A program made the translations under genes and the position numbers. Shown piece after piece: positions 9,496-34,097 of a stretch of 50,233 nucleotides of DNA; the first letter of the stretch is position 1, and the number at the start of each line of letters is the position of its first letter. This stretch comes from a virus: positions 1-50,233 of the IMG/VR virus record IMGVR_UViG_3300021519_000016; one strand, given 5' to 3'. The notes below the pieces were generated by a model. The model had not been told where the DNA came from, did not search any database, and saw only the letters and a list, made by a program, of their open reading frames with translations.

Positions 9496-11529
9496 ATGTC
9501 AGATTTTTTTAGTTTTAGACTTCCAGAAGATTTTATAGATAAATATATTTCTGCCCCAAGCCCTTTTGGTTTTAAAGATGCAGCAGAAAATTCACTTGGA
9601 GAAATTACTTTTATTCGTACGTATTCTCGCATGAAGGAAGATGGAACTAAGGAAAGATGGCATGAAGTTTGTCGTCGTGTAATCGAGGGTATGTATTCAG
9701 TACAGAAGAATCATGCTAAAGAAAACCGTTTACCTTGGAATGACTACAAGGCTCAGAAGTCTGCACAAGAAGCATTCCAAAGAATGTTTGAATTAAAGTG
9801 GACACCACCAGGACGAGGTATGTGGGCTTTTGGAACCCCCATGGTAATGGAGAAAAAGAACTCAGCAGCACTACAAAATTGTGCAATGGTTTCTACAAAG
9901 GACCTTGACAAGAATGATCCAGGAGCCTTATTTGCTTGGGTTATGGATGCCCTTATGCTTGGAATAGGTGTAGGGTTTGATACAGTAGGACAGGATAAGC
10001 ATTTCTTAATCTATGCCCCAACAGAACCAGAACAGGTGTTCGAAATCCCAGACACTCGTGAAGGATGGGTAGAGTCAGTTAGACTTCTAATCAACTCATA
10101 CCTTAGAGCAAACCAGAATATTCAAAAGTTTAACTATGATTTGATCAGACCCCTTGGGGCGCCCATAAAGGGCTTTGGAGGCGTTGCATCAGGTCCTGCA
10201 CCTCTTATCAAGTTACATGACCATATTGACCGTGTAATAGGCTCCAGAGCGGGTGAAACACTGGACTCTCGTGCCATCGTAGACTTGGTAAACCTAATTG
10301 GTACTTGTGTAGTATCAGGAAATGTCAGAAGGTCTGCAACCCTTGCTTTGGGTAGCGCTTCAGATGAAGTATTTATGAATTTAAAAAACTCTGAGTCTTT
10401 CCCAGAAAGAAACTCTTTTGATCCAGAAAATCCAGGGTGGGCATGGATGTCTAATAATTCTATTTCAGCAGAAGTAGGAACAAAGTACGAAGACTATGTA
10501 GATTTAGTTACAGAGAACGGAGAGCCAGGTTTTATATGGCTTGATGTTGCTCGTAATTATGGCAGACTAAAGGATGCGCCAGATGGAAAAGACTATCGTG
10601 TGATGGGCTTTAATCCCTGTGCGGAGCAGCCATTAGAGTCATACGAATTATGTACACTTGTAGAAGTGCATTTGAATCGTCATGAATCTAAGGAAGACTT
10701 CCTGCGTACCCTGAAGTTTGCATACCTATATGGAAAGACTGTAACACTTGTTCCAACACACTGGCCACAAACAAACGGCATCATGCAACGCAACCGTCGC
10801 ATTGGCACATCACTTACAGGTATTGCATCATTTGCAGATCAAAAAGGTTTGCCAATAGTTCGTGAATGGATGGACGAAGGATACAACAAGATCCGCCACT
10901 ACGACCACCAGTATTCAGAATGGCTATGTGTTCGTGAATCAATTCGTGTAACTACAGTTAAGCCATCAGGATCAGTCTCAATTCTTTCTGGTGCAACTCC
11001 TGGAGTTCACTGGGGTCCTGGAGGAAACTTCTTCCTTCGTGCAATTAGGTTTGGAAACACCGATCCAATGATACATTTGTTCAAAGCAGCGGGGTATACA
11101 ATTGAAGACGATGTTGTATCAGCAAATACATCAGTAGTTTACTTCCCAATTAAATCAGGTCATCCAAGATCTGAAAAGGATGTAACAATATTTGAAAAGA
11201 TTGCTCTTGCTGCCACTGCTCAGAAGTACTGGTCTGATAATGGTGTTTCTGTAACATTATCATTTGATAAAGAAACAGAGTCAAAGCACATTGTCCCAGC
11301 ACTTAATATGTACGAGGGACAGTTAAAGGCTGTCTCGTTCCTACCAATGGGAAACACAGTTTATCCACAACAGCCATACACAGGAATTACTAAAGAGCAA
11401 TACGAGTCATATATTGGTAAGTTAAAGCACATTGATTTTAAGGCAATTTACGACGGTGTAGATAATCTTGAGGCTCAGGGTGAATCATACTGCACAACAG
11501 ACTACTGTGAAATTAAAATAAACAAGTAG
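9496..11529 (+). CDS. Class II (adenosylcobalamin-dependent) ribonucleoside-triphosphate reductase
   Basis: This enzyme makes deoxyribonucleotides for phage DNA synthesis using coenzyme B12. The 677 residues match the monomeric Lactobacillus leichmannii type (about 740). Visible key residues are C129 (Q-N-C-A-M), the active-site set C375-A-E377 and C386 (N-P-C-A-E-Q and E-L-C, the same 11-residue spacing as C408/C419 of the leichmannii enzyme), the phosphate loop S-G-S-V-S-I-L-S-G-A-T-P-G, and the C-terminal redox pair C666/C671 (C-T-T-D-Y-C). No separate radical-generating subunit is needed, fitting its stand-alone position. It has its own promoter and ribosome site between a terminator and the virion genes. 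The host must supply or import cobalamin. Confidence 0.95.
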   Translation: MSDFFSFRLPEDFIDKYISAPSPFGFKDAAENSLGEITFIRTYSRMKEDGTKERWHEVCRRVIEGMYSVQKNHAKENRLPWNDYKAQKSAQEAFQRMFELKWTPPGRGMWAFGTPMVMEKKNSAALQNCAMVSTKDLDKNDPGALFAWVMDALMLGIGVGFDTVGQDKHFLIYAPTEPEQVFEIPDTREGWVESVRLLINSYLRANQNIQKFNYDLIRPLGAPIKGFGGVASGPAPLIKLHDHIDRVIGSRAGETLDSRAIVDLVNLIGTCVVSGNVRRSATLALGSASDEVFMNLKNSESFPERNSFDPENPGWAWMSNNSISAEVGTKYEDYVDLVTENGEPGFIWLDVARNYGRLKDAPDGKDYRVMGFNPCAEQPLESYELCTLVEVHLNRHESKEDFLRTLKFAYLYGKTVTLVPTHWPQTNGIMQRNRRIGTSLTGIASFADQKGLPIVREWMDEGYNKIRHYDHQYSEWLCVRESIRVTTVKPSGSVSILSGATPGVHWGPGGNFFLRAIRFGNTDPMIHLFKAAGYTIEDDVVSANTSVVYFPIKSGHPRSEKDVTIFEKIALAATAQKYWSDNGVSVTLSFDKETESKHIVPALNMYEGQLKAVSFLPMGNTVYPQQPYTGITKEQYESYIGKLKHIDFKAIYDGVDNLEAQGESYCTTDYCEIKINK

Positions 11530-15322: not shown

Positions 15323-15727
15323 ATGAATGTTGAAAATCCAAAGAAAAAGAGTAAAGTTCTGCCCAAGATGAAGGGCCAAGTGGGAGAGTCTCGTGCAAAA
15401 ATTATTGAAAAGCATTATGACTGGGGTCTTTATGTATACAAAAAGGCTAATGGTAAATGGTTTACAGATGGAACTGGTTCAGTTTTAAACATTGAGTCTA
15501 TGAAGGGTGACATTTTGCAAATATCAAAACTTAAAGAGGCTGCAAAATATTACGGGGATGAGGGAGATGGAACATGCATATTTGTTCCAGGTCTAACAAG
15601 AATATCAGAAGAAGAATATTCTGAGCAAAAACAAAGAATGGCAGAAGGTCTTATACCTTCTTTAAATGATCTTGGTGCAGTTCAGGCAGCCAAAGACACT
15701 ATTGCAAAATATGGAAGTGATGACTAA
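15323..15727 (+). CDS. Small virion-region protein upstream of the portal
   Basis: The first ATG, at 15317, lies inside the promoter spacing, so I chose the second, at 15323, as a leaderless start; this removes two residues (134 aa). The protein has a basic Lys-rich N-terminus (K-K-K-S-K), a compact W-x-x-Y-V-Y-K-K-A-N-G-K-W-F region, and a C-terminal helical part. It overlaps the portal gene as TAATG. A similar small gene precedes the portal in some actinophages, in my recollection, but its role is not known. A nucleic-acid-binding or head accessory function would fit the charge and position. Confidence 0.7.
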   Translation: MNVENPKKKSKVLPKMKGQVGESRAKIIEKHYDWGLYVYKKANGKWFTDGTGSVLNIESMKGDILQISKLKEAAKYYGDEGDGTCIFVPGLTRISEEEYSEQKQRMAEGLIPSLNDLGAVQAAKDTIAKYGSDD

Positions 15728-17340
15728 TGAGTGAAGATAACGAATATCGTATTGGTGCAAGAATTGATTCACTTCCAAAAGAAGATGATACTTTTGCAAA
15801 GCAAGATCCATTTAATAAAGATTGGGATCTTTTAAAAACATTTAACGGTTTAGATAATAATTTTAAACGCCGTGCACAAAGAATGTCAAAGGCGGATGCA
15901 ACACCAGCATACATGGATAGCGCAATGGCCATTAGTACAGGTATTAATGGAGCAGCATCAAAAGAGATTAATCCAGGTCTTATTTATAGAAATGGCTACG
16001 GACTATTTGATGTTATTACTCCACCTTGGAATCTTTATGAACTAGCAAATTATTACGATACATCTTTTGCTAATCATGCTGCAATTGATGCAAAAGTAGA
16101 AAACATTGTTGGACTTGGATATGACTTTGAGGTTTCAGCAAGAACGATGCTCAAAATTGAATCATCAACAGACTCAGGTGCCAGTGATCGTGCAAGGAAA
16201 AGAATTGAAAGAGCAAAAATTGAAATGCGAGATTGGTTGGAAAGTTTAAACAATGATGATTCTTTTACTTCTTCAATGGAAAAAGTGTACACAGATTTAC
16301 AGGCAACTGGAAACGCATACTTAGAAATTGGTAGAACTGTAAAAGGTGATATAGGTTATGTTGGGCATATACCAGCAACAACAGTTCGTGTAAGAAGACT
16401 TCGTGATGGCTTTGTTCAAGTAATTGCAAATAAAGTTGTTTATTTCCGTAACTTTGGTGCATCAAATCCAAATCCACTAGGAACTGATCCAAGACCAAAT
16501 GAGATTATTCATTTTAAGCAGTACTCTCCTCTAAATACTTTTTATGGTGTTCCAGATATTATTTCAGCAATTAATTCTTTATACGGAGACTCTCTTGCAT
16601 CACAATACAATATTGATTTCTTTAGTAATAAGGCTGTTCCTAGATACGTTGTAACTCTTAAGGGAGCAAAGTTATCTGCAGAGGCAGAAGATAAAATGTT
16701 TAGATTCTTGCAGACTGGACTTAAAGGACAAAACCATAGAACTCTCTATATTCCTCTTCCTCCAGACTCAGACACAAACAAAGTTGAGTTTAAAATGGAG
16801 CCAATTGAAAATGGTATTCAAGAGGGATCATTTAAGGAATATCGCAGGCAAAACCGTGATGATATCTTGGTAGCACATCAGGTTCCACTTTCAAAACTTG
16901 GTGGAGGAGATTCTGGATCAATTGCTTCAGCATTATCACAAGATAGAACATTTAAAGAGCAGGTAGCAAGACCTTCTCAAAGACAACTTGAAAAGCATAT
17001 TAACAAAATCATTCGTGAAAAAACTGATATTTTAGAGTTTAAGTTTAATGAACTAACCCTTACAGATGAAATTACTCAGTCTCAAATTCTTGAGAGATAT
17101 GTTAAGAATCAGATTATTGTTCCTAATGAAGCAAGAGAGCAGTTGGGAATGGCACAGCGTCCAGGAGGAGATGAACCCCTTCAACTCAAGCCAGAACAAG
17201 CAGCAGATGCCACGGCCAATAGAGCAAGAGATGCAGAACGCACAAATAATAACTCAGATAGTCCATCAACTGTTTCTGGAAGAAACCCAAAAGGTGAAGG
17301 CAGAAAGTTTGATGGAGAGTCCGAATTGTCCACATTGTGA
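15727..17340 (+). CDS. Phage portal protein
   Basis: This is the dodecameric ring at the capsid vertex through which DNA enters and leaves. The 537-residue length fits. The stretch H-F-K-Q-Y-S-P-L-N-T-F-Y-G-V-P-D (about residue 260) followed by a helical block N-I-D-F-F-S-N-K-A-V-P-R is characteristic of the PBSX/HK97-type portal family. The last 60 residues are polar, Asn/Arg/Glu-rich and probably disordered. It precedes protease, scaffold and capsid in the standard head-gene order. The large terminase normally found just upstream is not here; its place is taken by a tail protein and a small gene. Confidence 0.92.
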   Translation: MSEDNEYRIGARIDSLPKEDDTFAKQDPFNKDWDLLKTFNGLDNNFKRRAQRMSKADATPAYMDSAMAISTGINGAASKEINPGLIYRNGYGLFDVITPPWNLYELANYYDTSFANHAAIDAKVENIVGLGYDFEVSARTMLKIESSTDSGASDRARKRIERAKIEMRDWLESLNNDDSFTSSMEKVYTDLQATGNAYLEIGRTVKGDIGYVGHIPATTVRVRRLRDGFVQVIANKVVYFRNFGASNPNPLGTDPRPNEIIHFKQYSPLNTFYGVPDIISAINSLYGDSLASQYNIDFFSNKAVPRYVVTLKGAKLSAEAEDKMFRFLQTGLKGQNHRTLYIPLPPDSDTNKVEFKMEPIENGIQEGSFKEYRRQNRDDILVAHQVPLSKLGGGDSGSIASALSQDRTFKEQVARPSQRQLEKHINKIIREKTDILEFKFNELTLTDEITQSQILERYVKNQIIVPNEAREQLGMAQRPGGDEPLQLKPEQAADATANRARDAERTNNNSDSPSTVSGRNPKGEGRKFDGESELSTL

Positions 17341-17365
17341 TATATGTATAAAAAGGGCTTATAAT

Positions 17366-18781
17366 ATGATGGTGAGTAATATATCCAAGGCCCATTGGAA
17401 TTCAGATGGGGAAAATTTGCGTCTGTCAATGCCTTTTTCAAAGGTAGACAAAGAACGAAGAACCGTATCTGGATTTGCATCCCTAGACAACATTGACAAG
17501 CAAGACGATATCGTTACAGCAGAAGCATCAATGGACGCCTTTGCAAAATTCCGAGGAAATATTCGTGAGATGCACCAGCCATTAGCAGTTGGTAAAATGG
17601 TTGACTTTAAAGCAGAAAAATATTTTGATCCAGAATCAAAAAAGTTTTATAGCGGTGTCTTTGTATCTGCCTATGTTTCAAAGGGCGCACAAGATACTTG
17701 GGAGAAGGTCCTTGATGGAACTCTTTCTGGTTTTTCAATTGGTGGAAGAATGAATAAATGGGATGATGGGTTTGATGAAAAGTCAGACAAAGCAATTAGA
17801 ATTATTAAGCAATACGATTTGATAGAGTTGAGTCTTGTAGATTCCCCAGCAAATCAGTTTGCAAATATTGTATCAGTTGAAAAGGTTGATGGAGTCGATG
17901 TATTTAAAGCAGATGCCACCGTACTTGAAAATGTTTTTTATGATAGAGAGTCTGGCATAGTACAGATTTCAGAGAATGAATCAGAGGTAAGTCCTACAAC
18001 AGGCAATGCTATGGAAAATATAGGTTTCGTTGAAAAAACGGATAATGAAAAAGTAACAATGATAAAATTCTTAGTCGATAGTGCTAAAGGCATTAATACT
18101 TCTAAGATTAACAAGGAGGAAAACCTTATGGCAAAATCAACAAAAAACACAGTTGAAGAAATCGTAGAGAAATCTGATATTGCAGTTGAAACAACAGAGG
18201 TCGCTCTAAAGTCAGATGGTAACGATGAAGTTACAAAGGCTTCAACATGTCCAGATTGTAAGATGTCTATGGATGCATGCAAGTGCGATTCAAAGGCTGA
18301 AACAACAGATGAAGAGTCAACAGAAAAGGCTGCAAAGCCTGCAGTTGATGAAGCAGAATCTGCAGCAGAGGCTGCTGCTGAAACACCAGCAGATGAAGAG
18401 GCAGAGGCTAAGAAAAAGCCTATGGCTCCTAAGTCAGATGAAGTAGTTGCAGAAGCAATTGCAGAAACCAATGACGGTCTTGAAAAAGCCTTTAGCGATC
18501 TAGTAGAAATAGTCAAGTCATTGCAATCAGAAGTAGAACTTTTAAAGTCTACCAAGGTTGACATTGAAGTGGCACAAACATCATTTGAAGCAGTTGCAAA
18601 AGATATTGCATCAGCAACAAATGTATTTAATGAATTTGGTAAGCGTGTGGAACTTGTAGAGCAAGACACTGCTTTCCGAAAGTCTGGCGATCTCGGCGAG
18701 ATAGTACAGAATCAACCTGAAACGGTTGAAAAATCCCTATGGGGCGGTAGTTTCCTCAAAACAGCCGATCTATTCATTTAG
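17366..18781 (+). CDS. Prohead protease fused in frame to scaffold region
   Basis: The N-terminal domain (residues 1-200) is a herpesvirus-type/HK97 prohead serine protease: His70 in R-E-M-H-Q-P, Ser124 in L-S-G-F-S-I-G-G, and L-I-E-L-S-L-V-D-S-P after it. It would clip the scaffold and itself during capsid maturation. The same frame then continues into an acidic, Ala/Glu-rich scaffold-like region with a strong internal start at 18128, giving 471 residues in all. I chose 17366; TATAAT at 17360-17365 and the ATG/ATG/GTG series make the exact start uncertain. An upstream ATG at 17312, overlapping the portal gene by 29 nt, would add C-P-H-C-D-I-C. Confidence 0.85.
   Translation: MMVSNISKAHWNSDGENLRLSMPFSKVDKERRTVSGFASLDNIDKQDDIVTAEASMDAFAKFRGNIREMHQPLAVGKMVDFKAEKYFDPESKKFYSGVFVSAYVSKGAQDTWEKVLDGTLSGFSIGGRMNKWDDGFDEKSDKAIRIIKQYDLIELSLVDSPANQFANIVSVEKVDGVDVFKADATVLENVFYDRESGIVQISENESEVSPTTGNAMENIGFVEKTDNEKVTMIKFLVDSAKGINTSKINKEENLMAKSTKNTVEEIVEKSDIAVETTEVALKSDGNDEVTKASTCPDCKMSMDACKCDSKAETTDEESTEKAAKPAVDEAESAAEAAAETPADEEAEAKKKPMAPKSDEVVAEAIAETNDGLEKAFSDLVEIVKSLQSEVELLKSTKVDIEVAQTSFEAVAKDIASATNVFNEFGKRVELVEQDTAFRKSGDLGEIVQNQPETVEKSLWGGSFLKTADLFI
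18128..18781 (+). CDS. Scaffolding protein from an internal start of the protease gene
   Basis: AAGGAGG at 18113-18119 lies 8 nt before an ATG at 18128 that is in frame inside the protease gene, one of the strongest ribosome sites in the window. The 217-residue product begins M-A-K-S-T-K-N and is acidic. It holds a C-x2-C-x7-C-x-C cysteine cluster near residues 39-52, an Ala/Glu-rich disordered stretch (60-105), a predicted coiled coil (115-185), and a C-terminal basic/aromatic end. This arrangement matches nested protease/scaffold genes such as lambda C/Nu3. The product should be the abundant internal scaffold, removed by the protease. Confidence 0.75.
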   Translation: MAKSTKNTVEEIVEKSDIAVETTEVALKSDGNDEVTKASTCPDCKMSMDACKCDSKAETTDEESTEKAAKPAVDEAESAAEAAAETPADEEAEAKKKPMAPKSDEVVAEAIAETNDGLEKAFSDLVEIVKSLQSEVELLKSTKVDIEVAQTSFEAVAKDIASATNVFNEFGKRVELVEQDTAFRKSGDLGEIVQNQPETVEKSLWGGSFLKTADLFI

Positions 18782-23124: not shown

Positions 23125-23172
23125 TGTAGTGAGGAAACAAGCCCTTTTAATAAAATGAAAGAGGTGAAAAAT

Positions 23173-23829
23173 ATGGCTAATTATAGTCGCGGTTCAAGCA
23201 GTAACATTATCGTGGGTGCAGCAGCACTTTTTACACATAATGCAGGCCCAATCGGATACGATGAAGACGGCAAGATTACAGATGCGCAAGCAGCAATAGA
23301 TCTTCCAGCACTTACAGCATCCGCAACATCCTATAAGGATACTCTGTCAAATGATGGAGATTTCACAAATATAGGATACACATCAAATGGTTTGGATATT
23401 GAATTCAATCCAGATTTTGGTGATGTAGCAGTAGATCAACTTCTTGACGTTGCTCGTTTATTCAAGCAAGGCATGACAGTTAATCTAAAGACATCTTTTG
23501 CAGAAGCAACACTAGAAAATCTTCTAGTAGCAATTGCAGGAAAAGATAGCGATCTTCCAGAAGCAGTTTCAGGAATTCATTCATTGAGAATGTCTGCAGG
23601 AGATATTGGCGACGTTCCTCTAGAGCGTGGCCTTGTAGCAGTAGGACCAGGTTCTGGTTCTTCTCTAGATCCAAAGGAAAGAATCTACGTAGCATATCGT
23701 GCACTCTCAATTGAGACTGTTACAGTATCTGCAAAGCGTGATGCAGCATCTATGTTCGATGTATCATTCCGTTTGCTTCCAAATGACAATGCGTCATATG
23801 GTAAGATTGTAGATCGTTCACTAGCGTAA
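23173..23829 (+). CDS. Major tail tube protein
   Basis: The ATG at 23173 has GAGGTG 6 nt upstream, which favours it over the ATG at 23155 (whose product would begin M-K-E-V-K-N). The 218-residue product is a beta-rich subunit with I-G-Y-T-S-N-G-L-D-I-E-F-N-P-D-F and A-Y-R-A-L-S-I-E-T-V-T-V-S-A-K-R-D, a pattern of major tail proteins in long-tailed siphoviruses. Codon usage is shifted to highly expressed style (CGT, ATC, TTC) like the capsid gene. It is followed by a strong terminator and then the assembly chaperones, which is the standard order. Confidence 0.85.
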   Translation: MANYSRGSSSNIIVGAAALFTHNAGPIGYDEDGKITDAQAAIDLPALTASATSYKDTLSNDGDFTNIGYTSNGLDIEFNPDFGDVAVDQLLDVARLFKQGMTVNLKTSFAEATLENLLVAIAGKDSDLPEAVSGIHSLRMSAGDIGDVPLERGLVAVGPGSGSSLDPKERIYVAYRALSIETVTVSAKRDAASMFDVSFRLLPNDNASYGKIVDRSLA

Positions 23830-23846
23830 TACAACTTAATATGATA

Positions 23847-23879
23847 GGCTCAATCCTTCGGGGTTGGGCCTTTCTGTTT
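23847..23879 (+). terminator. Rho-independent terminator with UUCG loop
   Basis: GGCTCAATCC (23847-23856) pairs with GGGTTGGGCC (23861-23870), 10 bp including two G-U, closed by a C(TTCG)G tetraloop and followed by TTTCTGTTT. It ends the tail tube transcript. Confidence 0.88.
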
Positions 23880-23887
23880 GGTATACT
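23879..23887 (+). promoter_or_regulatory. Extended -10 promoter for leaderless gene, TGGTATACT
   Basis: The element begins in the T-tract of the terminator and ends 6 nt before the ATG at 23894, so the predicted start of transcription is the A of that ATG. There is no Shine-Dalgarno. The alternative upstream ATG at 23864 lies inside the terminator stem and is not credible. Confidence 0.75.
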
Positions 23888-23893
23888 TATATA

Positions 23894-24574
23894 ATGGCAA
23901 CAAAAATATACGACACAAAAAAAATATCATTAGTAGATGATAGAGTTATTTTTGCTGCTCCATTAAAAATAAAATACTTAAGAGAATTTTTAGAGACATT
24001 TGAAACTATTAAAGAAGCAAAAAGTGATGATGAATCAATATCTATTCTGGCTCAATGTGCTCTTATTGCAATGCAACAATATTGCCCATCAATTAAAACT
24101 ATTGAAGATTTAGAAGATAGCCTAGACTTACCAACCATCTATGATGTTATTGATGTTGCAGCGGGAATCAAAATTAACGAGAAGTCAGAAAACACAGTTA
24201 AGGACCAGGCAGTTGACAGTGGATCAACATGGGAAACCTTAGACTTAGCAAAACTAGAGTCAGAGGTTTTTTTAATCGGTATATGGAAAGACTATGATCA
24301 ATTAGAATTATCAATGTCTATGCAAGAGTTAACAGCAACACTAAAAATAAAGAGAGAGTTAGACTATAACGATAAAAAATTTTTTGCTGCAATGCAGGGT
24401 GTTGATTTAGATAAAAATTCTGGTAATGGTAACGAATGGGAAGATATGAAGGCTAGGGTATTTAGTAAAGGAGCAGTAACTGACGGCAACGATATTCTGG
24501 CTTTACAAGGTATTAATGCTGAAAAGGCTGGTTTTGGAATAGACATGGGTCTTACCTATGAAGTTTATAATTAG
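23894..24574 (+). CDS. Tail assembly chaperone, long form (G-T type)
   Basis: The 226-residue product starts M-A-T-K-I-Y-D-T. Residues 1-100 match the separate short protein at 24630 along their length (P-L-K-I-x-x-L-R, I-A-M-Q-Q-Y, L-D-L-P-T-x-Y, G-I-K). A second domain follows (Y-D-Q-L-E-L-S-M-S-M-Q-E-L, F-F-A-A-M-Q-G-V-D-L-D), which resembles the T domain that binds tail tube subunits in lambda-like G-T chaperones. Usually G and G-T come from one gene by ribosomal frameshift. Here the long form has its own gene, before the short form, with a leaderless-type promoter. Confidence 0.8.
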   Translation: MATKIYDTKKISLVDDRVIFAAPLKIKYLREFLETFETIKEAKSDDESISILAQCALIAMQQYCPSIKTIEDLEDSLDLPTIYDVIDVAAGIKINEKSENTVKDQAVDSGSTWETLDLAKLESEVFLIGIWKDYDQLELSMSMQELTATLKIKRELDYNDKKFFAAMQGVDLDKNSGNGNEWEDMKARVFSKGAVTDGNDILALQGINAEKAGFGIDMGLTYEVYN

Positions 24575-24594
24575 TAAAAAATAAACCTGACTTA

Positions 24595-24603
24595 TGGTAT
24601 AAT
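24595..24603 (+). promoter_or_regulatory. Extended -10 promoter, TGGTATAAT
   Basis: A perfect extended -10 lies in the 55-nt gap between the two chaperone genes, followed by AAGGAGG at 24618-24624 and the ATG at 24630. Unlike the long form, the short form gets both a leader and a strong ribosome site. Confidence 0.7.
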
Positions 24604-24629
24604 TAACTAAACCTTATAAGGAGGAATAA

Positions 24630-24953
24630 ATGGCAACTGCCACTGAAGAAAAGACAGTCACGCTTATCGATGGCACCAAGATCAAAGTTAGACCACTTAA
24701 GATCTCTCTACTTCGTCCGTTTATGAAGAAGTTTGAGGATATCGCAAAGGTATCAGAAGATAACGAAAAGTCTATGGATTTACTCATGGACTGTGTTCAA
24801 ATTGCAATGCAACAATACAAGCCAGAATTGGCAGAAGACAAGGAAGCACTAGAAGAAAATCTAGACCTTCCAACAGTATACAAGATTGTCGAAGAGGCAT
24901 CAGGAATTAAACTTTCTGACGCATCATTACTTGGCAACCTTGCAAATAACTAA
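24630..24953 (+). CDS. Tail assembly chaperone, short form (G type)
   Basis: The 107-residue product begins with a strand-rich segment (K-T-V-T-L-I-D-G-T-K-I-K-V-R-P-L-K-I) and continues with helices containing C-V-Q-I-A-M-Q-Q-Y-K-P and L-D-L-P-T-V-Y-K-I-V-E-E-A-S-G-I-K-L, closely matching residues 1-100 of the long form upstream. It lacks the T domain, and there is no slippery sequence or room for one, because the tape measure starts 18 nt later. It should coat the tape measure during tail assembly. Its promoter, ribosome site and codon use all suggest higher expression than the long form. Confidence 0.85.
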   Translation: MATATEEKTVTLIDGTKIKVRPLKISLLRPFMKKFEDIAKVSEDNEKSMDLLMDCVQIAMQQYKPELAEDKEALEENLDLPTVYKIVEEASGIKLSDASLLGNLANN

Positions 24954-24971: not shown

Positions 24972-27900
24972 ATGGCTGATGTAGAATCCAATATTCATGT
25001 AAATATTGATACGTCTGATGCTTTAGCAAGTCTAAAACTTCTACAACGTCAAATATCAGCCTTCCATACACAGATGTCAAAATCTGGTACTGCAGCATCT
25101 GCGGTAGCAGCAAATCAAGCACAAAACTTGATGAACAACATAAATGCTACTGGTAAATTTAACGCATCAATGCGAACAGTAACATCAAGTACAGAATCTT
25201 TTACCAATGCTTTAGAAAGAAATAAATTAACTTCTAGAGAATATTTTAGATATACTGGTGCTGCAACAAAAACTTTTGGTAGATTATTTGCATCTGAGTT
25301 TGAAACATTAAATAAAGTTGCAAGAGAACGTGTAAAAGATATACAAACCCAGTATGTTAAAATGGGTAGAGGTGCTAATGGTGCGCTACAAGCAATTGCC
25401 GTAAGGCCTCTAACGCTGGATATGAAAAATCTTGGAACACAAACTGCTATGGCTGCACAAAGACAACAACTTCTTAATCAATTATTGAAACAAGGATCAA
25501 CAAATCTTTTAAACTTTGGTAAAAATACACAATGGGCTGGTCGTCAGTTGATGGTTGGTTTTACAGTTCCACTTGTAATGCTTGGATCAGTTGCTTCAAA
25601 AACATTTATGAAACTTGAAGAACAGGCAATTAGATTTAAGCGTGTTTATGGAGAAATGTTTACGACTCAGGCCGAAACAGATGCCATGGTTAAGCAGGTT
25701 CAAAAACTTGCAACAGAATATACCAAGTATGGTGTTGCAATAGAAGATACAATGAAAATGGCTGCAGATGCAGCAGCAATGGGTAAACAAGGAGCAGATT
25801 TACTTGCTCAGATTGCTCAAGCAACAAGACTTGCAGTTCTTGGTGGAGTAGACCAAGCACAAGCATTACAAACAACTATCTCAGTAACAAATGCATTTGG
25901 AGTTGCTGCAGATCAGTTAGCAGGAAAAATTGATTTCCTTAACGCAGTTGAAAACCAAACAGTTGTATCAATTGAAGATTTAACAACAGCAATTCCAAAG
26001 GCTGGACCAGTTGTAAAACAACTTGGTGGATCTGTAGAAGATCTAGCCTTCTTCCTTACTGCAATGAAAGAAGGTGGAATCAATGCATCTGAAGGAGCAA
26101 ACGCTCTTAAGTCTGGACTAGCATCTTTAATTAACCCATCAGCAAAAGCAAGTAAAATGCTTGCAGGGCTTGGTGTTAATATTAAAGGAATTGTTGAAGC
26201 AAACAAAGGAGATATTAAGGCAACAGTAGTTGGATTTGCACAAGCACTTGATACACTTGATCCACTTAATCGTGCTCGTGCTATTGAGCAATTATTTGGT
26301 AAGTTTCAATTCTCAAGACTGTCTACATTGTTTCAAAACGTAACAGCGCAGGGTACACAAGCACAAAGAGTTTTGCAATTAACACAAGCAACTACAGAAG
26401 AACTTGCAATATTATCACAGCGAGAATTAGACAAAATTCAAAACACAACAACTTATAAATTTAAAAAATCAATGGAAGATTTAAAATTAGCAATAGCGCC
26501 TGTAGGAGAGCAATTCTTAAAAGCATTAACTCCCATTGTTGAGTTTGTTGGAAAAGTTCTTGATAAATTTAATAATTTAGGAGATGGTACTAAAAAGTTC
26601 TTAACTATTCTTACAGTTGCTCTTGCTGGGGTTGGGCCAGTTCTTTTGATGGGATTTGGTTTAGTTGCAAATGCTGTTGCTAATATAATTAAAATGTTTG
26701 TAGGCCTAAAGTCTGTATTTAATAGAACTGGTCAATCAAGTCAAATATTAGGAGAACAGACAAACTATTTAACTAAAGAACAATTAGAAGCCTCAGCAGT
26801 TGCAGCATCACTTGATCAGGTTCATCAAAGATTAAGGCAAACTTTTACATCTGAAACAGCAGCAGTAAATATGTTGGCAAATGCATATAGAAGAGCAATT
26901 GCATCACAGATAGGATTTGTTGGTCCTAGTGCTGGAAAGCGTATGCCTACACCTAAAAAATATTCTAAAGGAACAACAAGTGTTCCAGGAACTGGAAATA
27001 AAGATACTGTAAACGCAGACCTAACTCCTGGTGAAGCAGTAATTCCTCAACAATCAGCACAAGATCCAGCAAATAGGCCAGCCATTGCACATATGGTTGC
27101 AGGCGGAAGAATTCAAGGATTAGCCTTTGCTCCCGAAGCAGTAAAAACAAAAGATAACAATGCTACAAAAATGAGTGAGACTCACGTAGGTGGTAAAAGC
27201 GAGCCAAGACTAATATCAGACATAATAAAGGCTCATCCAGAAATGACTGACAATCAAAGATTAAAACTTATCACCATGGAACAGGTTCTTTTGTCACAAG
27301 GATTGCCAGCAGTAACAACAACTAAACATGGATTAATGTTTGATTTTCCACTAGAGATCAACAAAAGAATGTATGGAGAAGGAATACCAAAACAAGATTT
27401 TATAAATGAATGGATAAAAGACGGGGCAGCAAAATGGCATCCATCTGGAATGAGTCCTGTACAAGCACAAGCACTAGATGATGCATTTTTAACTGCTGTT
27501 AAAGACTCTAAAGCAACAATGATTAATGATGATCTATTAAAAAATTTATATGAAGAAAAAATTCCAAAAATTATAAGTCCAAATGATCCAGGATACATAA
27601 AGTCTAAAGGTTTATATGTAACAGACTTTAGATTTAATATGGGTCAGGGTTTGGGAACTACGCCAGAATCAAGCGCAGCAATATTAGAAAAAGCAAAAAC
27701 AACAATAAATCCAGCAACTGGAAAACCTTACATTGCCGACTATGAGATTAAAACTAGAATATCTCAAAGTCAGGGTAAAGTAGTAACTTCCTCTGGAAGT
27801 GTAACTCTTAATCCAGGAATGTATAATGGTTTTGAGATTAAAGAGCCAACAACTGTAAATATGAATAGACTTGGCACTGGTACAACGCCAACTTTTTCTA

Positions 27901-30900
27901 AGAAAAAAGATAGTCAAGGAATAAAGAAATCAACAAAAACAAAAATTGCAGTTCCTTTAGAGGCTCCAAAACTAATTGATCTTCAGAAAGCATTAGACCA
28001 TAAAGAAAAGTTACAGGCTATAGCAGCAGATGCAGCAGGGACTTCAAATGGAATAAAGAAACCAACAAACTTTGGTGTCCAGCAATCTCAAAGTTCTGGA
28101 AGAAGTAATTTTATGTCAACCATTGGTGGAGTATATATAAAGCCAGATGGAACAAAAGTATTTGTAAAGCCTATGTTAAGCGAATTAGATGCTGTAGCAG
28201 AAAAAAGAGCAACTGAAATTGCAAGAACCGTTCATGGGTTGGTAGCACCAAAGCAAACTATTAGGACAATGATTGACCCTACAGATATTTCTGAGACAGA
28301 TGTTAATAAAAAAAGAAAAATAATTGTACTAGAGTCTCCTTATGATCCAAGGTTTGATCCAAACACAATGTCAAAAACATTCACACAAAAAGATTATTTT
28401 AAACAGTTAGTTGCATCAAGTCTTCGTGCAGATAAAGATCTTAAGAAAGGCAATCTTGGAGGAAAAGTTTTAGCAGATGTTGGAGCAGCAGGAGTTTTTG
28501 ATACAGCCTCTGGGAAAAGGACTTATTCAAAAGGTCTTCCATCAATGGAAGATATTGCAATGCATAACTTTAAAGGTGTTGCAGGAGCAAACGCTAATGC
28601 TTCCCCTTTCTGGTTTGGAAATGCAACAGCAGATATTCCACAAAGGATAAAATCTGCAAAAGAGTATAAAGACTTAGTTGTTGCGGAAATAGAAAGAACT
28701 CTTCCAAAATTAAGAACAAAAATTGATAGTCTTAAACTTGCTGACAATGATCCAGCCAAAAAAGTCTATGAGGACATGTACAAAAGACTTGAGGCTGGTA
28801 AGGCTGCAGACTGGGAAAAAGTTTATAATTTTCATAGATCAATTTTAGTAAAACCAGATGAAGTGCTTCAAGATAAAAATGGTAACTTAAAACCAATACC
28901 AACAAAACCAAATAACGGAAAATTAAAGTCAAATTCTGGCAGTATAAGCGACACAAGACTTGCTCCAGCAAGTGTTGCTTCATTAGTTCGTCAAGGGCCA
29001 AAAGCAAGAATTGTTGGAAAAGCAAATGCTCCAGGGTCAAATAATGCAACTGTAAACGCAGTCCTTGCTGGAGTAAAAGGGTCTGTTGCAAAAGCCAAGG
29101 TTGCTGGCGCAACTATTGGAAAAACAATATCTCAGTCAGCAGCAGCATCATCAAGAACTACATTATATGGCACTGGACCAATAGATTCAGATGCTAAATC
29201 TTTACGTAGACAAATGGAAAAGCGCCAAAAGGCAGAAGCAAAAACACAAGCAAAAATGGCAGCATCAAAAACTAAACTATACGGTATGGGACCAATGGAT
29301 GCAGATGCCAAATCTATGCGTAGACAAATGGAAAGAAGAAGTAAGTTAGCAAACTCTGTAGCATATCAAAAAAGAATTATTAGTGAAAGAGCAGCAGCAC
29401 AATTTACAAAAGCACCTTCAATATCTGCAACGCCAATAGGACCTTCAATGGCAAATGGAAAATTTGAAACCACCAAATTACAAAGAACTAAAAATAATTT
29501 ATCAAATGCAAGAGCAGCAGGAAAAGGTGGTATGGGTCTTGCTGGCGGTGTTGGATTAGCAGCAGGAGCAGCAATGATTGGTTCTATGGCTCCAGGCAAA
29601 GTTGGAGAAATATCACAAAAATTAATGATGCCACTTATGGGGTTGTCTATGATAATTCCAATGTTAAAAAGTCCTGCTTCGGCTTTAGCGGTAGGACTTG
29701 TTGCAACAGTTGGATCATTTGTTGCTTTAAGAATGGCATTTGATAAAGCAGCAAATAATGTTTTACAAGAAGGTGAAAAGTTTAAAGGATCTACATCTGC
29801 AATACAGTCAATAGCAAAATTTGGTGGTAAAGCAACAGCCTCAGAACAGATGGACCTAAGAAGAAAAAATTCTTTTTCAATGCTTGGCCCAGCAACAGGT
29901 AAGACTACGTATGGAGAATCATTTGTTCAAACAGCAGAGGGTAAAGCATTAACAGCAAAAATATCAGAACAAAGTGCTAAGGGTAAAGGAAATGTTGCAG
30001 CAAAAGATTTAAGTGGTCAACTTTCTGCAGCAATTATGTCTGGTGCTATGGATATGTCACAAGCAAAAAGTTTGGCCATGAATGCTGGCAGACAAGCAGG
30101 AAACATGTCTATTGGTATAAAAGTTATTGCTCAACTAGAAAGTTTACTTGGACCAAATGGAGAAAATCTTATTAACGATCCATTAAATGTTAGAATTAAT
30201 ATGATAAATGCAAATGCAAAGAATATGCAAAATAGTGCAAACAACGTAAAGAATGCTGGTAATTTACAAAAACTTGCTGGACAAAAAGTAACACAAGGAC
30301 TAGGAATAGGTGCATCTGCACTTGGTGGAGCAGCAGCAGGTGCTGGATTCGGAACAGCACTTGGACCTGCAGGAACTCTAGCAGGAGCAATCATAGGTGC
30401 TGGAATTGGAACAGCAGTAGGAGCAATTGGTGGATACTTTGCATCACAGAAATATGCAAAAGAAGCAGCAGTTCTTGGAGCAACCTATGCGGTAGATGCT
30501 AAAATTGCAATGGAACAAAATAAACAAATATTAGATTCATTTGATATGTACTATCAAAAAAAGATTGAAGAGTTAACCCTGCAAGGCAAAATTAATGAAG
30601 CGAATCAAATGCAAAACGATTACATTAGAGATAGAAATACACTTACAGCAGCCCAAAGTGCTTTACAAGCAAATATTGTTTCACAGTATAACTCTGCTGG
30701 TGGACTTCAAGAGTCAATGATGTCTGGAATGAAAAAAGCCACAACTGCAAAATACAAAAATGATCCTAACCAATTAGCATATATAGATACTGTAAATCAA
30801 CAATCAAAAAATCTAAGAAAAGATGGTCTTATAAACAGTGGTCAAGAGTTTTTAATTCAAGCAAAAATGGCAAGTGGAGATATTCCTCCAGCCGTATTTA

Positions 30901-33900
30901 GAACTCTTTTACAAATGGCAACAGATAACAAAGACATTGCACCAAAGATGATGAACATTATTACAAAATTTACTGGTGCAACATCTGAGTCAATAGGCGT
31001 TGCAGCACAAAATATTCTTGATGCAAAGGGTGATGTTAATAAAACAATTCAAACAAACTTTATTACAAAAGTTGAAGCATTTGAAAAAGACTCAGATGCT
31101 CTTGATTTTACAAAAAATATGATTAAATTAAATAATCTTAATACAGTTATACCTTCAGATTTTATGGTTAGTTTTTACATAGACCCAAAAAATAAAGCAG
31201 CATATGATGAATTAAATCGAATTCTTGATGCAATTGAAACACAAAAACCAAAAACAATAGATGCTGTTTATAACATAATGCCACAACTTAAGGGCAGTGC
31301 AGCCTTTAATGAAGCATACTTTAAATCATTAACAGATGATCAAAAACTTGTATACACAACCACAATTGCATCAATTATTAATATTCCAGATCCACAGATT
31401 GAAGCAAGCGCAGATTACATAGCATGGACTAAAGAATCTGGACCTCATGGTGGTGCAGATGTTACTGGCAGTATTGCAAATAAAATAGCAAAATATAAAG
31501 AAGCACAGGGCTGGAAAGCAGTTACAGATAATACACAAGTAGGAGTTGCTGCCCCAGCAAAAACAACGTCAACTGGCGGAAACACAGTACAGGCCTCACC
31601 ATTAGATGATTTGGTAAAGAAATTAAGAGATGTAAGAATGAATCAGATTATGGTAACAGAAGGCTGGGGTGCTTCAAGTAAAGCACTTAATAAACTATTT
31701 GGCGGTAGCAAGACAATCAATGTATTTAGTGGTATAGAAAACGATCTAAGACGCCTAGGTGGAAGTCAAGATTTAATTGAACTAATTATTGGTATGGACC
31801 CAAAGGTATATGAACAGAAAAAGAACTCACTATTTTTCTTTGACAACAAGAAAAACATTATTGGACTAAGAGAAGATGCTAAAAACATTCAGGAAGCATT
31901 AAACTCAATAACTATGGGTGACTGGAACTCTAGTATGGAGGCAGACCTTAAGGCTATTGATAATCAGTCCTCTGCATTTAATAAGTTAGCAAACCTTGGA
32001 GTTCCAGTAGCAGATGCATATCAGTTAATTTCTGATAAGACAATAGCATCAGCAATTGCCAATGGCGTTAATGATAAAACATTAAAAACATTAATTGAAA
32101 GATATAAAACTTTGACTGCAGCACAACAAAAATCAGCAGCAATAAGCGGAGTAAAGACAGACATTGCACAATTTAAGAAAGATACAATGCAAGAAGCAAG
32201 ACTAAGATCTAAGTATGGCGCAGAAAATGCTTTTGCAATTTCATCAGATGAAAACTTAAAAGCAATGGAAAATCAAGTTGCTTTAGCACAAGCAAAAGTA
32301 GATAGGTTGATGAGAATTGATGCACCAGCAATAATGATCGGTGCTGCACAAGGAGAATTAAATGCATTAATTTCTGACTTTAATGAAAGACTAAATCAGT
32401 TAAAATCTACAGTTGAATTTATGCAAGGACTATTTGATAAAGGCTTTGGCAATGCAATGCAGGCTTTTGATGTTAAAGAAACAGCCCTTAATATACAATT
32501 TAAACTAGACACAAAATCAAAAGATACAATAATTAAAGATGCACAAAATGCAATAGCATCAATTCAATATAAAATAGATGATAAACAAGCAGCCTTAAAG
32601 GGTATTGAAGATCAAGAACAAAAAATTAATGACAAATATGATGAAAGAATTCAAGCCTTAAATGAAGTTGAAAAAGCCAATGCAACTATTTCAAATCAAC
32701 AAAAGGGACAACTAACTCTTGCTGAAGCATTAACATCGGGAGATATTGCTGCAGCAGCCAGGGCTGCACAAGACATTAGAGCACAAGAAGCAGCAGATGC
32801 CGTAACGAAACAAAAGGATGCTGTAGAACAGTCTCGAAAGTATGAATTGGCTGGAGTAACTGCAATTGATAAAACTGATGGCAAAGTTAAAACTAGGAAG
32901 CAACTTGAAGAAGAAATTAAAACCCTTGAAACTGAAATATTCAAAATTGAAGAAGATAAACTAGAACCAGCGCAAGAGTTTATTCGATTAAGACAAATTC
33001 AATTAGATAAAGATATAGAAGGACTTACAGTTCTTGGACTAACAAAAGATGCATGGGCAGCAATTAAAAATGAAGTAGACCTTGCATTAATTAAGAGCGC
33101 AGCATTTGTTGAATCTATGCAACTTGCACTAGATGTTCAAAAAAGACTTATTGATGCATATAATACACAAAAACCAGCAGCACAGGTCACACCAGCAGTT
33201 GCTTCACCTAATAAACAAGTAGCAGACCCTGCAACTACTCCAGAAGTTCCTGCAGTGGTAAAAAAAGCAGCAGACGCAGCAGTAGCAGATGCAGCAGCAG
33301 CAGTAGTTGCAGCAGGATCAACTGCAGCAGCAGCAGCAATTGCAGCAGATGCAGTGCCTGGCGCAACCATAGTAGTGGGAAATGAAACAACTACAAATAC
33401 AGCAGGAACTATAGAACCAACAGGTTCAAATAGACCAACAGATCAGTCATCTGTTGTTCAGATGCATTTTGATGATTTACAAAAAATTGCAGATGATGCA
33501 GACAAGAATTTTATGCTTTTTAATCAGGCAATGAATGTTGGAGATGTAGCAAAGAATGCAGGAAACACTCCAGCCCAGCACTTGGCAGATTTATACAAGT
33601 TACAAAATGATCTTGCTGTGCAAAAGGCTATGGCACCAACAGAAGGAATGCTTGCACAAGAAAAAGCAGTAAGAGATGCAGCAAATGCTGCCGCAGCAGC
33701 AGCAACGGCTAAGAAAGCAGCAGATGCAGCAATGCTAAAGAAATTTGGTGGAAATGCTGCAGCAGCAAATGCATTTGGTAATTGGTCTATGGGTGGCCTC
33801 ATTCCTAATTATTTTGCAGTTGGTGGTTTTGCAAAGGGTACTGATACAGTGCCAGCAATGCTAACTCCAGGAGAGTTTATTATGAGTAAGTATGCAGTTG

Positions 33901-34097
33901 ATTCTCATGGCGTAGACACTATGAGGGCAATCAATAATGGTCAAACAACAGGCGGGGCAGTGTATAATAATACATATACATTAACTGTTAATGCAAAAAC
34001 AAATGCTAATCCAAATGAAATTGCACAGGCAGTAATGTCAACAATTAAACAAGTTGATGACAGAAGAATTCGGGGGATTGGTTTAAATGGTAGATGA
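24972..34097 (+). CDS. Tape measure protein (3,041 aa) with inserted extra domains
   Basis: This protein sets tail length and travels down the tail at infection. Residues about 190-400 are a TP901-type tape-measure core. A hydrophobic stretch at about 543-580 and a Gly-zipper segment at 1780-1830 could insert in membranes. The motif V-x-x-x-L-T-P-G-E occurs twice, near 680 and near 2965 (G-T-D-T-V-P-A-M-L-T-P-G-E). Between residues 720 and 1300 lie globular sequences unusual for a tape measure, including one at 1050-1290 with kinase-like features. Two L-Y-G-x-G-P-x-D-x-D-A-K-S repeats follow at about 1398-1460, and coiled coils at 2480-2620. AGAGGTG at 24958-24964 supports the start. Confidence 0.93.
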   Translation: MADVESNIHVNIDTSDALASLKLLQRQISAFHTQMSKSGTAASAVAANQAQNLMNNINATGKFNASMRTVTSSTESFTNALERNKLTSREYFRYTGAATKTFGRLFASEFETLNKVARERVKDIQTQYVKMGRGANGALQAIAVRPLTLDMKNLGTQTAMAAQRQQLLNQLLKQGSTNLLNFGKNTQWAGRQLMVGFTVPLVMLGSVASKTFMKLEEQAIRFKRVYGEMFTTQAETDAMVKQVQKLATEYTKYGVAIEDTMKMAADAAAMGKQGADLLAQIAQATRLAVLGGVDQAQALQTTISVTNAFGVAADQLAGKIDFLNAVENQTVVSIEDLTTAIPKAGPVVKQLGGSVEDLAFFLTAMKEGGINASEGANALKSGLASLINPSAKASKMLAGLGVNIKGIVEANKGDIKATVVGFAQALDTLDPLNRARAIEQLFGKFQFSRLSTLFQNVTAQGTQAQRVLQLTQATTEELAILSQRELDKIQNTTTYKFKKSMEDLKLAIAPVGEQFLKALTPIVEFVGKVLDKFNNLGDGTKKFLTILTVALAGVGPVLLMGFGLVANAVANIIKMFVGLKSVFNRTGQSSQILGEQTNYLTKEQLEASAVAASLDQVHQRLRQTFTSETAAVNMLANAYRRAIASQIGFVGPSAGKRMPTPKKYSKGTTSVPGTGNKDTVNADLTPGEAVIPQQSAQDPANRPAIAHMVAGGRIQGLAFAPEAVKTKDNNATKMSETHVGGKSEPRLISDIIKAHPEMTDNQRLKLITMEQVLLSQGLPAVTTTKHGLMFDFPLEINKRMYGEGIPKQDFINEWIKDGAAKWHPSGMSPVQAQALDDAFLTAVKDSKATMINDDLLKNLYEEKIPKIISPNDPGYIKSKGLYVTDFRFNMGQGLGTTPESSAAILEKAKTTINPATGKPYIADYEIKTRISQSQGKVVTSSGSVTLNPGMYNGFEIKEPTTVNMNRLGTGTTPTFSKKKDSQGIKKSTKTKIAVPLEAPKLIDLQKALDHKEKLQAIAADAAGTSNGIKKPTNFGVQQSQSSGRSNFMSTIGGVYIKPDGTKVFVKPMLSELDAVAEKRATEIARTVHGLVAPKQTIRTMIDPTDISETDVNKKRKIIVLESPYDPRFDPNTMSKTFTQKDYFKQLVASSLRADKDLKKGNLGGKVLADVGAAGVFDTASGKRTYSKGLPSMEDIAMHNFKGVAGANANASPFWFGNATADIPQRIKSAKEYKDLVVAEIERTLPKLRTKIDSLKLADNDPAKKVYEDMYKRLEAGKAADWEKVYNFHRSILVKPDEVLQDKNGNLKPIPTKPNNGKLKSNSGSISDTRLAPASVASLVRQGPKARIVGKANAPGSNNATVNAVLAGVKGSVAKAKVAGATIGKTISQSAAASSRTTLYGTGPIDSDAKSLRRQMEKRQKAEAKTQAKMAASKTKLYGMGPMDADAKSMRRQMERRSKLANSVAYQKRIISERAAAQFTKAPSISATPIGPSMANGKFETTKLQRTKNNLSNARAAGKGGMGLAGGVGLAAGAAMIGSMAPGKVGEISQKLMMPLMGLSMIIPMLKSPASALAVGLVATVGSFVALRMAFDKAANNVLQEGEKFKGSTSAIQSIAKFGGKATASEQMDLRRKNSFSMLGPATGKTTYGESFVQTAEGKALTAKISEQSAKGKGNVAAKDLSGQLSAAIMSGAMDMSQAKSLAMNAGRQAGNMSIGIKVIAQLESLLGPNGENLINDPLNVRINMINANAKNMQNSANNVKNAGNLQKLAGQKVTQGLGIGASALGGAAAGAGFGTALGPAGTLAGAIIGAGIGTAVGAIGGYFASQKYAKEAAVLGATYAVDAKIAMEQNKQILDSFDMYYQKKIEELTLQGKINEANQMQNDYIRDRNTLTAAQSALQANIVSQYNSAGGLQESMMSGMKKATTAKYKNDPNQLAYIDTVNQQSKNLRKDGLINSGQEFLIQAKMASGDIPPAVFRTLLQMATDNKDIAPKMMNIITKFTGATSESIGVAAQNILDAKGDVNKTIQTNFITKVEAFEKDSDALDFTKNMIKLNNLNTVIPSDFMVSFYIDPKNKAAYDELNRILDAIETQKPKTIDAVYNIMPQLKGSAAFNEAYFKSLTDDQKLVYTTTIASIINIPDPQIEASADYIAWTKESGPHGGADVTGSIANKIAKYKEAQGWKAVTDNTQVGVAAPAKTTSTGGNTVQASPLDDLVKKLRDVRMNQIMVTEGWGASSKALNKLFGGSKTINVFSGIENDLRRLGGSQDLIELIIGMDPKVYEQKKNSLFFFDNKKNIIGLREDAKNIQEALNSITMGDWNSSMEADLKAIDNQSSAFNKLANLGVPVADAYQLISDKTIASAIANGVNDKTLKTLIERYKTLTAAQQKSAAISGVKTDIAQFKKDTMQEARLRSKYGAENAFAISSDENLKAMENQVALAQAKVDRLMRIDAPAIMIGAAQGELNALISDFNERLNQLKSTVEFMQGLFDKGFGNAMQAFDVKETALNIQFKLDTKSKDTIIKDAQNAIASIQYKIDDKQAALKGIEDQEQKINDKYDERIQALNEVEKANATISNQQKGQLTLAEALTSGDIAAAARAAQDIRAQEAADAVTKQKDAVEQSRKYELAGVTAIDKTDGKVKTRKQLEEEIKTLETEIFKIEEDKLEPAQEFIRLRQIQLDKDIEGLTVLGLTKDAWAAIKNEVDLALIKSAAFVESMQLALDVQKRLIDAYNTQKPAAQVTPAVASPNKQVADPATTPEVPAVVKKAADAAVADAAAAVVAAGSTAAAAAIAADAVPGATIVVGNETTTNTAGTIEPTGSNRPTDQSSVVQMHFDDLQKIADDADKNFMLFNQAMNVGDVAKNAGNTPAQHLADLYKLQNDLAVQKAMAPTEGMLAQEKAVRDAANAAAAAATAKKAADAAMLKKFGGNAAAANAFGNWSMGGLIPNYFAVGGFAKGTDTVPAMLTPGEFIMSKYAVDSHGVDTMRAINNGQTTGGAVYNNTYTLTVNAKTNANPNEIAQAVMSTIKQVDDRRIRGIGLNGR

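Follow-up and report, generated by a model that had tools for sequence, protein, structure and literature searches.

Of the recoding events known in tailed phages, frameshifting between G and T in tail-assembly chaperone genes is among the most widely conserved, which raises the question of why it is retained. In lambda-type systems, reportedly described by Xu, Hendrix and Duda in 2004, the G and G-T chaperones are produced with a programmed frameshift. Frameshift loci of this kind in Stanwilliamsviridae and Trinavirus lie between the tail tube and tape measure genes and yield a short and a long product. The same position and the same pair of products characterise two adjacent genes, here termed GL (long) and GS (short), of an uncultured virus represented by a 50,233-base viral record, analysed over its whole length and referred to below as the window. 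The G and T domains of GL and GS are homologous to those of Stanwilliamsviridae; unlike in lambda-type systems, however, G-T is encoded as an in-frame fusion and G by a separate paralogous gene, without a frameshift.

A two-gene chaperone state already has a precedent in T4-like phages, which are reported to carry a short chaperone gene and, apart from it, a gene for a long fusion (Vladimirov, Gautam, Davidson, Virology 2022, via PMC10885494). On that description the logic is the same as in GL and GS, namely a short gene and a fusion gene that share an N-terminal domain and need no frameshift. T4-like phages are myoviruses, whereas the GL/GS lineage is related to siphoviral Streptomyces phages, has close frameshifting cousins and sets a leaderless against a leadered start. 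An origin of GL and GS separate from the T4 chaperone genes is likely, since the gene neighbours are those of Stanwilliamsviridae; a weak match of one relative to PF12322 (T4_baseplate, E 0.03) is a lead only. In some Microbacterium cluster EA phages, two chaperone open reading frames (ORFs) seem to be expressed separately without an evident frameshift (PMC7302621), so that, as far as this passage goes, they resemble the GL/GS lineage in being actinobacterial-phage subclusters apparently lacking the frameshift. The passage mentions neither a duplicated G domain nor start signals, both of which are described for GL and GS here. The open literature searched yielded no report that describes two chaperone genes of this kind for the present lineage or the contrast between a leaderless and a leadered start.

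GL and GS lie in this order on the plus strand, as do all the features that flank them. The 5′ neighbour is the major tail (tube) protein gene (23155-23829; phrog_2175/phrog_885), whose product is 46% identical to annotated Stanwilliamsviridae major tail proteins, and a terminator-like hairpin, AGGCTCAATCC-TTCG-GGGTTGGGCCT, followed by a T-rich stretch (23846-23871), separates it from GL. GL (23894-24574; 226 aa) has a predicted leaderless start, with the extended -10 element TGG TATACT (23879-23887) placed 6 nt 5′ of its ATG. Its residues 1-102 match the G-like family phrog_10504 and are fused in frame to a T domain (24224-24571; residues 130-214 match the T-like phrog_10474) that aligns to the T segment which Streptomyces phages encode in the -1 frame. 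GS (24630-24953; 107 aa) consists of a G domain only, phrog_10504 being its sole PHROG match and the T part being absent; the extended -10 element TGG TATAAT (24595-24603) stands 26 nt 5′ of its ATG, followed by the Shine-Dalgarno sequence AAGGAGG (24618-24624). The gene for the 3041-aa tape measure protein (24972-34097; PhageMin_Tail, phrog_10030) starts 18 bases 3′ of GS.

An initial annotation of the window had called two separate chaperone genes, the long one first, correctly in coordinates, lengths and order, and had them share their first 100 residues. The paralogy is real, given a BLOSUM62 local score of 192 between GL and GS against a mean of 33 and a maximum of 48 in 500 shuffled sequences, but the resemblance is looser than this wording implied, the G parts being about 40% identical across some 100 common residues. 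Both the G and the T segments hit annotated tail assembly chaperones, and the T domains of two-gene loci are 37-48% identical to the T of phage Coruscant. The best BFVD fold match of GS is a protein named tail assembly chaperone (E 7e-7), and its best match in the PDB, a weak one, is the HK97 chaperone 2OB9 (TM 0.46, E 0.46); neither a PDB fold search with the GL model nor PDB sequence searches with the GL and GS profiles gave a credible match. Matches of one GL to Phage_TAC_19 (E 2e-4) and of one GS to the chaperone G family NF047360 (E 0.014) fit the annotation but are too few to rely on. Pfam matches of GS to Rubis-subs-bind (E 1e-4) and of GL to DUF4778 were set aside as likely chance similarities of helical proteins, because neither suits the position of the genes or their relatives. 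From synteny and the lambda model, which the role of G and G-T proteins follows (PMC5009743), and with modest structural support, we infer that, in the tail assembly of a long-tailed virus, GL acts as the G-T and GS as the G chaperone.

Several hundred loci, many of them redundant, came out of scans of a viral collection in which GS, GL and profiles served as queries, and they were classed by reading frame. A G-T fusion in frame followed by a separate second G was found at 269 loci (redundant); at 32 others (30 plus the loci L242 and L243) G is present once only and its T lies in the -1 frame. Reduced to loci of which no pair exceeds 93% protein identity, the two-gene class comprises 109 loci, that is, this virus and at least 108 distinct relatives, and the order major tail protein, hairpin terminator, GL, GS, tape measure protein is kept in every one of them. 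The frameshift class consists of Stanwilliamsviridae phages of Streptomyces and metagenomic viruses such as L245, L255, L267, L300, L263 and L310. The frameshift layout is shared by every isolated relative inspected, and the annotations of Rhodococcus phages NiceHouse and Francesca show joined frameshift genes. G GGA AAC or C CCA AAY, both canonical heptamers, stands in the G/T overlap at 20 of 27 frameshift loci; as the other seven (L149-type) lack one, a missing heptamer does not by itself exclude frameshifting. The initial annotation had proposed that two genes stand in for the frameshift, and relatives in both states support this: in one state there are slippery sites and no second G, in the other neither a slip site nor a change of frame. 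The two findings it named as contrary were looked for as well, with the result that no frameshift site is conserved and neither copy is dead. Two scans of GTDB bacterial genomes for prophage or host copies found no relative.

Three observations concern individual loci of this survey. In the seven L149-type loci (L149, L150, L151, L232, L233, L234 and L237, of Karimacvirus-type and related Streptomyces phages), T is out of frame with G, yet the overlap contains no canonical X XXY YYZ heptamer; the overlaps that were read have GAC CCG GAA in common, and the slip site may therefore be an unusual one. L242 and L243 (2546-3013) carry a frameshift-type G gene with a diverged, longer middle of about 30 extra residues between two G-like halves; what might be read as a double G is actually one ORF. 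L141 was rejected as a frameshifted GL, its one-base break adjoining the contig end.

The start signals of the two genes differ consistently, and the contrast called from the window, a leaderless-type promoter without a ribosome site for GL and an extended -10 with AAGGAGG for GS, holds across the 109 loci. The -10 hexamer of GL ends exactly 6 nt 5′ of the start codon in 76/109 loci and is TGN-extended in 95/109, and a Shine-Dalgarno match of at least 4 nt occurs in one, so that GL has the hallmarks of a leaderless gene, with a -10 element some 6 nt ahead of its start codon and essentially no Shine-Dalgarno sequence. Standard promoter geometry relates the position of the -10 element to the transcription start, and with a spacing of 6 nt transcription of GL is predicted to start exactly at the A of the ATG. 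GS has TATAAT in 108/109 loci and TGN in 109/109, located 23-37 nt upstream, together with a Shine-Dalgarno match of at least 5 nt in 102/109. By comparison, a -10-like hexamer stands 5-7 nt before 21 of the 1237 ATGs of the window (1.7%), as against 84 of 109 GL and none of 109 GS starts. All 109 loci have the hairpin with its T-rich tail 5′ of GL; its arms come in 74 different sequences, and its mean fold energy is -25.4 kcal/mol compared with -12.5 kcal/mol for shuffled sequences. G genes of the single-gene frameshift relatives have a leadered promoter with Shine-Dalgarno-like purine runs resembling that of GS; in the loci read, the leaderless start thus accompanies the two-gene state.

Leaderless starts seem to be general to this virus, because the same signature, a -10 element ending 5-7 nt before the ATG and mostly TGN-extended, is also found at window genes 4545, 15323, 41525 and 44404. 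Leaderless mRNAs can be translated well in actinobacteria, and the start type alone is therefore no proof of low GL production. Codon use differs as well, GS having codons like those of the tail tube gene and GL not. Measured against the capsid and tail tube genes of the window, GS reaches a codon adaptation of 0.653 and GL one of 0.507, the latter being the lowest among the whole genes tabulated, and GS exceeds GL in 99/105 loci (Wilcoxon p 2e-18). Judged from codons, this is the trace expected from high GS and low GL expression, although the bias could partly reflect differing ages or origins of the two copies.

We consider it likely that GL and GS are G-T and G derived by duplication of a frameshifting gene, and that the excess of G is set at initiation and not at elongation. 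On this model, which draws on relatives showing one state or the other, duplication of one frameshifting G/T gene would have left a copy that became the in-frame G-T fusion and a copy that retained only G and lost its slippery site. The terminator-like hairpin would separate GL from tail-tube transcription, and a promoter of its own would give a leaderless GL mRNA able to extend through GS into the tape measure gene. From within the operon, the second, consensus extended -10 promoter would produce an mRNA for GS, with its strong ribosome site, and the tape measure gene only. With promoters nested in this manner, GL transcripts could also yield GS, GS transcripts could not yield GL, and unequal ribosome entry would further keep G above G-T. 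Conserved unequal start signals, nested promoters and codon adaptation lend indirect support to a G:G-T ratio set by initiation strength.

An alternative is that GL and GS have diverged in function, for example with GS coating the tape measure and GL starting tube polymerisation at independent times, in which case their amounts would not be tuned to a G:G-T ratio and their start signals would reflect timing or a general promoter style. That the G domains are only about 40% identical and each form their own cluster fits this reading, as does the leaderless signature shared by window genes such as 4545, 41525 and 15323. The G and T parts nevertheless still align with the frameshift products of relatives, and the codon contrast lies in the direction expected for an excess of G, so that we regard functional divergence as unlikely though worth keeping in view. 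A bolder version of the initiation model appears rather improbable to us: leaderless and Shine-Dalgarno initiation would compete to set the G:G-T balance in place of ribosome slippage, the state of the host ribosomes would thereby alter the ratio and also tail assembly, and part of the family would perhaps have returned to frameshifting. If true, the ratio would respond to the host in a way that is impossible for a fixed slippery site.

It is very unlikely that GL still frameshifts, yielding an additional truncated G-like product from the heptamer U UUU UUA (24268-24274), or that read-through of the hairpin, in place of a leaderless promoter, is the sole source of GL. This heptamer is a classic slippery sequence and recurs in GL at a conserved Phe-Leu in 24/109 loci where 14 would be expected over all loci. 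It is nonetheless confined to these 24, falls close to expectation in 40 diverse loci (7 observed, 4.6 expected) and is located beyond the G domain, and a slippery role was accordingly rejected. The other canonical heptamer in GL of the window, A AAA AAA near codon 8, is likewise not conserved, and GS of the window has none. Across the 109 loci, zero-frame slippery heptamers are fewer in GL than in synonymous shuffles (135 against 175 ± 11) and at chance level in GS (27), and a search for a conserved slippery site in either gene found none. Read-through, for its part, would call for nothing like the conservation seen in the -10 element and its spacing of exactly 6 nt.

Decay of either duplicate, or a recent acquisition of the long gene, is hardly credible: GL is AT-rich and poorly codon-adapted and is truncated in 1/262 loci (L076), but its frame is open in the other complete loci, its signals are conserved, it has one old origin, and pairwise dN/dS values of about 0.09 for GL and about 0.07 for GS indicate strong purifying selection on both genes, neither of which is dead.

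As regards the history of the duplication preferred here, frameshifting is probably the older state, being carried by the outgroups. GL forms one clade (support 99/95), and its single origin is well supported by the trees. On G trees the three classes require 2-3 changes. In frameshift loci L245, L255, L267 and L300, G clusters with GS (98/93), leaving GL outside, but the AU test does not reject GL and GS as one clade (p 0.19). Two changes are needed on the T tree, where one two-gene clade is again not rejected (AU p 0.28). The trees were built on about 100-120 columns. These four loci would either have branched before the duplication or have lost GL later, and given both their grouping with GS and the non-rejection of one GL+GS clade, a return to frameshifting is possible.

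The lineage provides a large natural set in which both states occur and the regulatory signals can be read from sequence. It allows one to ask whether the frameshift serves the ratio alone or a coupling in time of both products. Annotators should neither join GL and GS in the two-gene group nor seek a missing frameshift there.

Two further observations concern other genes of the window. The 677-aa ribonucleotide reductase (9496-11529) is 61.5% identical to that of the lake actinomycete phage DSL-LC01 and 60.5% to that of mycobacteriophage Gaia, a resemblance that hints at an actinobacterial host; a search with the tail proteins gave no match from DSL-LC01. As listed, the portal gene (15727-17340) shares 275 bases (17066-17340), read in a different frame, with the prohead protease ORF (17066-18781), and the true start of the protease may lie further downstream than 17066.
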